NCBI GenBank assembly: GCA_029258915.1
Contig: JAPDJU010000012.1
Span: 1-64,000 of the forward strand
DNA: 64,000 bases
DNA from: Thermoproteota archaeon
GTDB taxonomy: Archaea; Thermoproteota; Thermoprotei_A; EX4484-217-1
Direction of reading: 5' to 3'
Shown here: positions 53,913 to 60,456 of the stretch, one piece after another
Layout: the number at the start of each line of letters is the position of its first letter
How positions within the stretch are numbered: position 1 is the first letter of the stretch
The notes under the pieces: model-generated
Database searches by the model: none
Told to the model about the DNA's origin: nothing
What the model saw: only the letters and a program-made list of their open reading frames with translations
Translations under genes and position numbers: made by a program

Positions 53913-54111
53913 GGTTCCTACCTACGTAGGCATTTATAGACCTACGTAGATGTTCATCGCCCCTTGTCTTCCCTGTGCCCTCCTACGGAGGTCTACCTCC
54001 CTCGGCGAACATGGGTGCATCGAGCCTCATAGACCTCGCTGCTTCATCAGTCTCAATACCTGAATGTTCAAATAAGCGTTGTTCTATATAAGTATTTTGG
54101 TGTTTAGAAGT

Positions 54112-54264
54112 ATGGGTATAATCCACGTTAAGATAGACGATAGGTTAGAGCTGGAGTTTAGAAAGAGAGTTCTAGAAGTCAAGGGGGTTAAGAAGAGGGC
54201 ATTAACGGAGGCGGTCGAGGAGGCGATAAGGCTGTGGCTAGAAAAACACAGAGGGAATACGTAG
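54112..54264 (+). CDS. Small RHH protein of the TnpB element
   Basis: MGIIHVKIDDRLELEFRKRVLEVKGVKKRALTEAVEEAIRLWLEKHRGNT. Confidence 0.7.
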   Translation: MGIIHVKIDDRLELEFRKRVLEVKGVKKRALTEAVEEAIRLWLEKHRGNT

Positions 54265-55261
54265 CCGTAAATGGAAAGTTGCTGATTACGGACAAGGTAG
54301 CTGAAGGGAAGTTGCTACATGCTATGAGGCTGTTCAGAGATGCCGTTAAAATGGCTCACCACCTGATTAAGGTGAGGCTGGATTGGAATAATGCTGAGAG
54401 GAGGTTAACTTCATACATTTCTAATGCACATTATGCCCATTCGGCGTAGCAAAAGGCTAAACTATGGGGGAAGCGACCTTACCTGAGATTGAGGAAGAAG
54501 ATTCTTTTCAGCGTCGGCAAAACGGCTGAAAAAGGAAATAGAAACATCAGGCTAATCCCGTCAGATAAGTGCTTCATTATTAGGATAAAGATCCCACATG
54601 CCGATGGAAAGCATGAATGGATTTATGCCAAAGCCATATTCGGTGAGAGGTACCTACCGCTACTAAAAGAATTATCTGGTGAGAATATCAGTTATGGAGA
54701 CGAGATAGGGGAAGATTACAGAATCCACGTATATGTACCAGTTGAGTTGTACTGTAAGCATTTGGGCAAGAAGATAGAGAGGAGAGGTAGGTCTTCCCAC
54801 ATCGCTGGATTTGACTTGAACAGCGACAGGATAAATATGGTCATAATCAACGATAGTGGAGAGTTGCTGGACGTTAAGGTAAAACACTTCCCAGAGGTTA
54901 CTCAACATGGCTTCCCCAAGGAGAAAGCTAGAGATATTAGGCTTAAAGCCCTGTCGGAGCTAATAGATTATGCATGCTATCATAATGTTGAGTATTTTGT
55001 ATTTGAGAGATTAGGGAAGAGAAAGAAAAAGAAGACTAGTAACAGAAATGTTAATAGAAAGCTAAGTAAGTTTCCTAAGAAGCAATTGCTTACTCATGCT
55101 AAGGTAATGGTAATGAAAAGGGTAAGAAGTTTTGCGAGGTAAACCCAGCGTACTCATCTCAAGATGCTGAATTAATAGCTAAAAAACTAAGACTCGATAC
55201 TCATACAACATCAGCATACATACTAGCATATAGATACCTAAAGTCTACAAACCCCTATTAA
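54234..55261 (+). pseudogene. tnpB: TnpB (IS605 OrfB) relic with in-frame TAG and a 3' frameshift
   Basis: In-frame TAG 54447-54449 between ORFs in the same frame; AGFDLNSDR, VFERLGKRK, then VNPAYSSQDAELIAKKLRLDTHTTSAYILAYRYLKSTNPY in another frame to 55261. Confidence 0.82.
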
Positions 55262-55319
55262 TACCTATAAAAAATGAACAGTTACGCTAGGCCATACCAG
55301 CGGGGTTTAAAAATGGCAG

Positions 55320-56007
55320 AGATTTGAGGCTTAGACTACGATTATTGGTGCTAAGTTTTGGTCTGAGCATTCGAGGAAAAGAATAGAGAACACTCTTGGC
55401 ATTGAAGCTTATAATAACTGCGGATTAGCTGAAGCTTGTGGACCTGAGATTGCGGTTGAAACACCTGAACATAAGGGATTAATGCATGTTTGGCAGATCG
55501 CTTCTACATAGAAGTTATTGATCCTAAAACAGGTGAAAATGTTGATGAGAGAGGGAGGAGAACTAGTAATAACAACATTGCAGAGAGAAGCCATGCCCCT
55601 AATAAGATGTAGGACAGGCGATATAGTTAAACTGATAGTCTATGTTTGCGGCTTAAGACCGGGTCATCCTTTAATCTCCTGAATTAAGGGCAGAGTAGAT
55701 GATATGGTTAAAGTTAAAGGTGTAGGATTATACCCTGAAAGCGTGGAAAGAATAGTTATGAAATATCATGAACTGTGACCTGACTATCTAATAATGTTAA
55801 CAGGTTACGACAGAGTAAAAGTGCTTGCAGAGGCAAAGAAGAATATAACGCAAAAGAGAATAAGTGGCATAGTGGAGGAAATTAGGAGAAAGTTAAAAAG
55901 AAGAAATATTCATTAGAATAAGTGTTAAAGTAGTTAAACAAGGTAAAATAGACGAAATTAGAGGAGCAGGTAAGGTAAAAAGGATTCTAGACTTAAGGAA
56001 GTTATAA
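55320..56007 (+). pseudogene. paaK: C-terminal relic of phenylacetate-CoA ligase family protein
   Basis: Multi-frame GAKFWSEHSRKRIENTLGIEAYNNCGLAEACGPEIAVETPEHKG, VIDPKTGE.VDE, AMPLIRCRTGDIVKLI, RIKGRVDDMVKVKGVGLYPESVERIV. Confidence 0.85.
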
Positions 56008-56022
56008 TGCAAGGTGTTTTTC

Positions 56023-59453: not shown

Positions 59454-59535
59454 CTATGAATACTAAGAAGACATGGGGAATATAAATATCGAACAATAAA
59501 GCAATTACATAAGGTTAAAATCAACCTAGAATTAT

Positions 59536-59673
59536 GGCTCAATATGAGCCAGCAGCTTATAAATAAAATATGCCATACACGCTGTTATTGGCACCTACAC
59601 CATACAATATGGTGCTCATGCATATAAAGGTATAACTCTATATACTAGTTATACCTAGTATACTATATGGTGC
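59536..59673. promoter_or_regulatory. Palindrome-rich putative operator array
   Basis: GGCTC-AATAT-GAGCC (59536-59550), CACCATA-CAA-TATGGTG (59598-59614), GGTATAAC-N11-GTTATACC (59629-59655), TATACTAG-N6-CTAGTATA (59641-59662); ATATGGTGC repeated at 59607 and 59665. Confidence 0.65.
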
Positions 59674-59679
59674 ATACAC

Positions 59680-60075
59680 TTGAGGAATGTTATTGTTGTT
59701 AAAAATGTTGATAAGAATTTATATAGGAGATTGAAAAGTACTGCCTCTCTTAAAGGCTATACTATTGGTGAAGCGTTAAATGAAGCCATTAAACTATGGT
59801 TAATGTTAAATGAGGCGATAAGTAGAGATTATTTAGACTATTTAACGTGTAGAGAAAGAAGCGAAGAAAAGCTTAAAGAGATCAATGAAAAATATTGTAA
59901 GAAATGTAAAGGAAAGTACGTAGTTGTTTGCGATGGTATTTTCATTGGAATATTTGATAATGAGAAAGAAGCGTTAAATAGTGCATGCAAATCTAAGGCA
60001 AGAGAATGTATCGTAGCTAAGTTGGGCGAACCCATTAAAGAAGAGAAAGTGGAATTTGGCATGGGTGTTCTCTAA
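59680..60075 (+). CDS. RHH-like N-terminal domain plus DUF5678-like C-terminal domain protein
   Basis: VIVVKNVDKNLYRRLKSTASLKGYTIGEALNEAIKLWL; GKYVVVCDGIFIGIFDNEKEALNSACK. Confidence 0.72.
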   Translation: MRNVIVVKNVDKNLYRRLKSTASLKGYTIGEALNEAIKLWLMLNEAISRDYLDYLTCRERSEEKLKEINEKYCKKCKGKYVVVCDGIFIGIFDNEKEALNSACKSKARECIVAKLGEPIKEEKVEFGMGVL

Positions 60076-60456
60076 TTGAAGTTCAAGTACAATGAAAATG
60101 TTAAGCCTCCAATACCTAAGATGAAGGTTAAAATATGGACTCCGAAAATAAAGGACTACGAATTAGAATTAGTGGTAGATACAGGTTTTAGTGGTGGCAT
60201 ACTTATACCTTATCGCCTATATGATGAATTAAAGTTAGCCTTAGTTGAAGTGCCAAGTAGGTACTTTGGAATCTTACCTGTAGGAATACCTATAATGCTA
60301 CATACGGCTCTAACGGAGGCAAGCATAGAAAAGCTTAAATTCAAAGTACACGTTCATTCACATCCATTAATAAATAAGAAGCTAGCTGGAAGAGAATTAC
60401 TAAACCAATTGAAAATACTACTTAACGGGCCGAAAAGAGAGCTAGAAATTCTATAA
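60076..60456 (+). CDS. Retropepsin-like (clan AA) aspartic protease
   Basis: ELELVVDTGFSGGILIPYRLYDEL, GRELLNQLKILLNGPKRELEIL; start immediately after upstream stop. Confidence 0.8.
   Translation: MKFKYNENVKPPIPKMKVKIWTPKIKDYELELVVDTGFSGGILIPYRLYDELKLALVEVPSRYFGILPVGIPIMLHTALTEASIEKLKFKVHVHSHPLINKKLAGRELLNQLKILLNGPKRELEIL

Follow-up and report, generated by a model that had tools for sequence, protein, structure and literature searches.

The evidence points to a dedicated, regulated protease switch, apparently undescribed, encoded by two abutting genes in the window (the whole stretch of DNA analysed here, 64,000 nucleotides from an archaeal assembly of 1.6 Mb). The first gene encodes an RHH-DUF5678 protein, and the second encodes a retropepsin-like protease. 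Our preferred reading, to which we assign a probability of roughly one-half, is that they make up a protease module that is self-contained, regulates itself and has the architecture of a toxin-antitoxin (TA) system, in which the partner holds the retropepsin inactive. The analysis shows the operon layout, the near-obligate linkage, the conserved operator, the predicted retropepsin fold and a change of N-terminal module in which DUF5678 stays.

Layout of the locus and the two encoded proteins

The pair is bordered on one side by a 226-bp gap (59454-59679) and, beyond it, by a gene of the BtpA family that reads leftward from 59444 or 59453. A leftward PfkB kinase gene comes after the protease gene. 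The two genes are co-directional and adjacent, with the DNA-binding partner first and the enzyme second, and the TAA of the RHH gene (60073-60075) abuts the TTG start of the protease ORF at 60076 with zero gap. Both the TA-like layout and the abutting stop and start had been described in a first-pass annotation of this DNA, and both hold. The coding features are as follows.

59680-60075, + strand: RHH-DUF5678 protein, 131 aa, TTG start (homologue profiles and fold comparison); RHH domain at about residues 1-46, helix 49-72, DUF5678-like beta-beta-alpha-beta at about 80-114, tail 121-131
60040-60072, + strand: residues 121-131 (EEKVEFGMGVL), the tail at the C terminus, with a pLDDT under 50 in the monomer model
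60076-60456, + strand: 126-aa aspartic protease of clan AA, retropepsin-like with a single lobe, TTG start (profile, motif and model)

The first protein carries an N-terminal RHH domain, and its C-terminal part is DUF5678-like, followed by an unstructured tail. Searched alone, it matched no relevant Pfam family, DUF5678 included. Among its 21 homologues, 11 matched RHH_1 and 4 matched DUF5678 (PF18929; best E = 1.3e-4); L188 scored 20.2 bits against a DUF5678 gathering score of 23.2. Profile comparison of the RHH domain matched ParG (E = 1e-4) and E73 (E = 4e-4), and residues 1-50 matched the folds of CopG, NikR, PutA and antitoxins with Z of 3-4, the fold matches including VapB12, FitA and KacA. 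The monomer model leaves the tail disordered, although its sequence is conserved per class (ELGLPW, EWLGGS, ELTGVF, MGMGVL), and Glu125 within it is nearly invariant. A cOA-sensing domain (CARF or SAVED), as in type III CRISPR ancillary effectors, was looked for in the window partner, and neither Pfam nor PADLOC gave a CARF match.

The second protein contains the motif VDTGFSGG, with DTG at residues 35-37, and a hydrophobic-hydrophobic-Gly motif, LAGRELL, at residues 103-109, which we take to be the counterpart of the retroviral IIGRNLL motif. Its TIGR03698 score of 50.6 bits lies under the curated NCBIfam cut-off of 57.35; all 19 aligned homologues matched TIGR03698 (best E = 1.4e-35). An AlphaFold2 model (pLDDT 84) matched HIV-1 protease in Foldseek with an E value of 4.4e-5 and a TM score of 0.75 by target length. 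The protein is thus predicted, from its model, to have a retropepsin fold with DTG, the hydrophobic-hydrophobic-Gly motif and a single lobe, in line with its first description as a DTGFSGG aspartic protease. With a single DTG lobe per chain, the protease has to dimerise to build an active site. The closest relative of the window protease, at locus L008 (G122:C117:95-469), has DIG for DTG, and in two Sulfolobales loci, L017 and L018 (G203 and G205; ORF near 1456-1845), the catalytic Asp is replaced by Asn (VNTGF) in an otherwise intact protein. These substitutions suggest that protease activity may not always be needed. At L017, a TnpB-like ORF runs into the RHH gene.

Upstream palindromes and a probable operator

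With a minimum arm of 7 bp and a maximum loop of 12 bp as the definition of an inverted repeat, the 226-bp gap held four, versus 0.44 expected from dinucleotide shuffles (P for four or more, 0.004); an arm of at least 10 had a P of 0.0085 in the same shuffles. Inverted-repeat density peaks in this gap, every other 226-bp stretch of the 64 kb having fewer. Two of the four overlap, and ATATGGTGC occurs twice, as the first-pass annotation had stated in claiming at least four inverted repeats, two of them overlapping, and a repeated sequence upstream. The features of the gap are as follows.

59535-59551, no strand: inverted repeat TGGCTCA-ATA-TGAGCCA, absent from L008, no operator-motif match
59598-59614, no strand: inverted repeat CACCATA-CAA-TATGGTG, absent from L008, overlapping the first ATATGGTGC
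59607-59615: first copy of ATATGGTGC
59628-59662, no strand: probable operator, made of overlapping inverted repeats whose three half-sites span the presumed TATA box
59628-59656, no strand: inverted repeat AGGTATAACT-N9-AGTTATACCT, part of the probable operator
59641-59662, no strand: inverted repeat TATACTAG-N6-CTAGTATA, overlapping the 59628-59656 repeat, part of the probable operator
59637-59644, + strand: TCTATATA, which reads TTTATATA in L008, a candidate archaeal TATA element within the operator (sequence and comparison with L008)
59665-59673, + strand: second copy of ATATGGTGC, whose GGTG (59669-59672) sits 7 nt 5' of the TTG start

The GGTG at 59669-59672 may be the Shine-Dalgarno sequence of the RHH gene; in L008, GGTG likewise lies 5' of the GTG start.

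Motif discovery, run on the 60 bp that precede each of 33 non-redundant RHH genes, yielded a 14-bp operator motif, TTA[CAT]CTAGTTTAAC (form TTA.CTAGTTTAAC), just 5' of the RHH genes, with a log-likelihood of 154.5 versus 44-51 in shuffled sets. In leave-one-out scoring, 64% of the loci reached at least 10 bits, versus 0.75% of random 60-mers. Two sites stood exactly 9 bp apart in 15 of the 33 loci, compared with 0.1% of controls, and distances of 3-8 and 11-17 were absent across the 33. A tandem 9-bp array, not isolated palindromes, forms the operator in many relatives.

The window site is TATACTAGTTATAC (59641-59654), with an inverted half-site at 59628-59637 and the next CTAG 10 bp beyond it. 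It scored 10.0 bits with a matrix built without the window and L008, a score that 0.75% of random 60-mers reach. By bare score the site is unexceptional, since at least 11 places in the 64 kb score higher, and its weight comes from its position and its conservation in L008, which retains GGTATAGCTTTATATACTAGTTATACC at the operator and not the palindromes at 59535 and 59598. Those two palindromes (59535-59551 and 59598-59614) did not match the conserved operator of the 33 divergent loci. The earlier idea of a palindrome-array promoter is supported for the overlapping pair at 59628-59662, which fits an operator, and is left without support for the other two. The operator appears to overlie the TATA element, where a repressor would be expected to act, and the presence of a conserved operator directly upstream supports autoregulation by the RHH protein, which probably binds this DNA. 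A strong operator-matrix match at 55924-55946 was set aside as a chance match, as it lies in an apparently decayed gene (55143-56010) with fragments reminiscent of phenylacetate-CoA ligase. The stretch from 54079 to 55142 holds a small RHH-like ORF and then a TnpB-like ORF, possibly an insertion-sequence remnant.

A well-conserved operator would also be expected if the second gene encoded a housekeeping or stress protease that has other substrates, with the RHH protein setting transcription only and the two proteins never meeting; RHH repressors commonly control unrelated enzymes. We consider such an ordinary autorepressor unlikely, as it leaves unexplained why DUF5678, and not the DNA-binding domain, persists when the N-terminal module changes (see below).

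Gene linkage and the constant partner domain

Conserved linkage in other genomes had been named beforehand as a check on the pair. In a class sample of 229 genomes, a relative of the protease was encoded in 35 (single-sequence search), and a relative of the RHH-DUF5678 protein was found in 38, with a patchy distribution and up to three copies per genome. Full-length RHH-DUF5678 matches (model start at 13 or less, end at 127 or more) numbered 34, one of them at a contig edge, and the protease lay directly downstream in all 33 testable genes of the class, coordinates being compared by eye. A tree of 97 proteases placed the window protease in a clade of 44 members (support 95/81), and 41 of them (41/42 testable) had an RHH-DUF5678 partner. 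Of the other three, two lie where their contigs end, and the third is a long branch whose placement is uncertain. The linkage of RHH-DUF5678 and protease is close to obligate, and the pair clearly passed this check. A collection scan with the closer subset of the alignment showed the pair in named relatives as well, among them a Marsarchaeota G2 genome, Candidatus Methanodesulfokora and MAGs of Thermoprotei and Desulfurococcales. A search for an ORF that joins RHH-DUF5678 to the protease in one chain found none.

The partner also follows the type of protease motif. Among loci drawn from the best-scoring protease matches, and not at random, a DUF5678-type partner was present for 53 of 72 DTGF/DTGY proteases versus 0 of 63 with DTG[ASTV] or DSG[AT]; the CARF-DUF5678 class in this count includes three loci without CARF (L060, L074 and L084). 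Generic TIGR03698-like DTGA/DSGA proteases, without a DUF5678-type partner, were set aside as a different subfamily. The genome that holds the window encodes a second, distant TIGR03698-like protease (L037; G000:C2:153172-153480) with an 87-aa CopG-type RHH protein just upstream. At L088 and L096, clan AA protease homologues lie downstream of an ORF resembling an MNT-type nucleotidyltransferase, and each locus holds two protease copies about 1.1 kb apart.

The RHH domain varies among the partners of the protease, and the DUF5678-like domain is the constant one. RHH_6-type partners occur at L053, L057, L064 and L076, and in Sulfolobales, CARF partners with a DUF5678-like C terminus, which are CARF-winged-helix proteins of the Cas_APE2256/Sso1393 family, lie directly upstream of proteases. 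Tandem-DUF5678 partners (L060 and L074) and stand-alone bacterial partners of 75-79 aa (L192 and L194; the L194 protein matches DUF5678 with E = 0.0036) have no recognised DNA-binding domain, and one Sulfolobales partner has two DUF5678 copies in one chain. Among CARF-winged-helix homologues of Sso1393, a protease accompanied 8 of 8 with a DUF5678-like extension, all from one family (f14) and thus few independent events, and 0 of 22 without it. The structure 3qyf (Sso1393, 324 aa) has the C-terminal extension, and 7pq2 and 7pq3, 275-aa chains of the same family, are without it. In hhalign comparisons, read as single comparisons with modest accompanying probabilities (24-74%), RHH_1-type partners matched RHH_6-type partners with E = 6e-5, an alignment that also spans the RHH domain, and matched the tandem-DUF5678 type with E = 8e-4. 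The tandem-DUF5678 type matched the CARF type with E = 2.7e-5, and the direct match between RHH-type and CARF-type C termini was weak (E = 0.059). Homology of the RHH-type and CARF-type C termini is thus supported stepwise, via the tandem-DUF5678 intermediate, at the level of sequence profiles. The first reading of the locus is partly supported: it was right on the TA-like layout and had overlooked the DUF5678-like domain as the constant partner.

In our preferred reading, the RHH domain would bind the array of half-sites that spans the TATA box and repress its own operon. The DUF5678-like domain, together with the flexible tail at the C terminus, would bind the neighbouring retropepsin and keep it inactive, until a signal, loss of the partner or release of the operator freed the protease. 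DUF5678 and a C-terminal tail recur in RHH, CARF, tandem and stand-alone partners alike. In the simplest account, these two parts would contact the protease, and the N-terminal module would link the pair either to a signal or to its own promoter. Because RHH and CARF modules form dimers and one partner has two DUF5678 copies, a dimeric or tandem partner may present two DUF5678 units to the two-fold symmetric protease. We infer that the two proteins make contact, that the partner inhibits the protease and that the proteolysis is toxic or regulatory in its effect.

A different outcome of the same contact would be cleavage: upon a signal, the retropepsin would cut its RHH-DUF5678 partner, for example, in the hydrophobic tail or a linker, and the operon would be derepressed. 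IrrE-DdrO and ImmA-ImmR likewise consist of a DNA-binding autorepressor encoded with a cognate protease, and IrrE acts on DdrO, and ImmA on ImmR, to relieve repression. IrrE and ImmA are zinc enzymes of COG2856 and their repressors are HTH proteins, both unlike the window pair. The obligate adjacency to a DNA-binding partner, the conserved, flexible, hydrophobic tail of a kind that a retropepsin could cleave and the resemblance of Sulfolobales CARF and winged-helix partners to transcription factors all speak for cleavage. We nevertheless hold this explanation to be possible but rather doubtful and favour inhibition, because two partner types, the tandem and the bacterial stand-alone DUF5678 proteins, are without a recognised DNA-binding domain, so that control of a repressor could not be the family-wide function.

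A tentative generalisation, for which we would claim less than an even chance, is that DUF5678 is an interchangeable dedicated inhibitor or adaptor for prokaryotic retropepsins. With RHH, it would make an autoregulated TA system with an effector of the HIV-protease fold; with CARF, it would make a cyclic-oligoadenylate-controlled switch; and alone, it would serve bacteria.

Known systems and mobility

It is already known, from PADLOC, that an aspartyl protease occurs in Sulfolobales type III operons. This PEPT_D model (PDLC01133), which goes with CARF7/Sso1393 (PDB 3qyf), belongs to the same protease fold family as the window protease, the profile match being weak. The window partner differs in having RHH instead of CARF and a winged helix and its own operator, with no cas genes in the examined flanks. 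One could suppose that the family is a CRISPR-type antiviral effector throughout, the RHH form being triggered by a virus-induced signal, given that the PADLOC model "Aspartyl protease, in the type III operon in Sulfolobales" matches the window protease weakly (E = 3e-5) and that related proteases adjoin RAMP genes (L050 and L106) or CARF sensors. This is very unlikely, as the window pair lies between the BtpA-family and PfkB kinase genes with no cas gene in the flanking genes scanned and the RHH form is without a recognised signal-sensing domain. In Sulfolobales, DTGF/DSGF-type proteases stand beside type III CRISPR RAMP-family genes at L039, L050 and L106 (RAMP calls by Pfam for L050 and L106 and by resemblance for L039).

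RHH-type type II TA operons (VapBC, FitAB, ParDE and KacTA/TacTA) likewise have the RHH gene first, the enzyme second, abutting genes, an operator at the promoter (binding being predicted here), a flexible C-terminal tail and a patchy multicopy distribution. Unlike them, the window has an aspartic protease as its second gene product, not a PIN, RelE-like or acetyltransferase toxin, and its first protein has DUF5678 between RHH and the tail. The window protease shares the fold, DTG, the hydrophobic-hydrophobic-Gly motif and a length of about 120 residues with the TIGR03698/COG5550 single-domain clan AA peptidases (PMC2642776), among which DUF5678-type partners are confined to the DTGF/DTGY subset. 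The survey of clan AA from 2009 covers prokaryotic proteases, and its text contains neither "operon" nor "antitoxin" (PMC2642776). In the CalpL/CalpT/CalpS type III CRISPR cascade, a signal-controlled protease acts on a partner protein to control transcription (PMC11417357); CalpL is a Lon-type protease with a SAVED sensor and is not homologous to the window protease. No description of an RHH-DUF5678 and protease module was found in the literature searched, although an earlier mention elsewhere is possible, and searches on DUF5678, on clan AA protease with toxin and on RHH or CARF with aspartic protease returned nothing relevant.

Prokaryotes encode many retropepsins, few of which have a known function or mode of regulation, and one large subset now has a named partner domain, which occurs with a DNA-binding module at some loci and with a second-messenger-sensing module at others. 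The control of HIV-like proteases in prokaryotes is now testable with two small proteins and 35 bp of DNA. If the protease is toxic or works in immunity, it would be a new effector class for TA or CRISPR-linked systems.

No relatives were found in plasmid and phage collections or IMG/VR, so that the search, at the sensitivity used, lends no support to an origin from a virus or plasmid. An empty insertion site was not demonstrated, same-order flanking genes being absent or too diverged. The nearest relative of the window pair, L008, with 67% and 60% protein identity, is in a different family (G122) and has upstream, instead of BtpA, a gene that we take from its ORF to be Pelota-like. The same-family genome G001 has a distant copy, with 31% protease identity. 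This distribution would fit horizontal transfer of a two-gene cassette.
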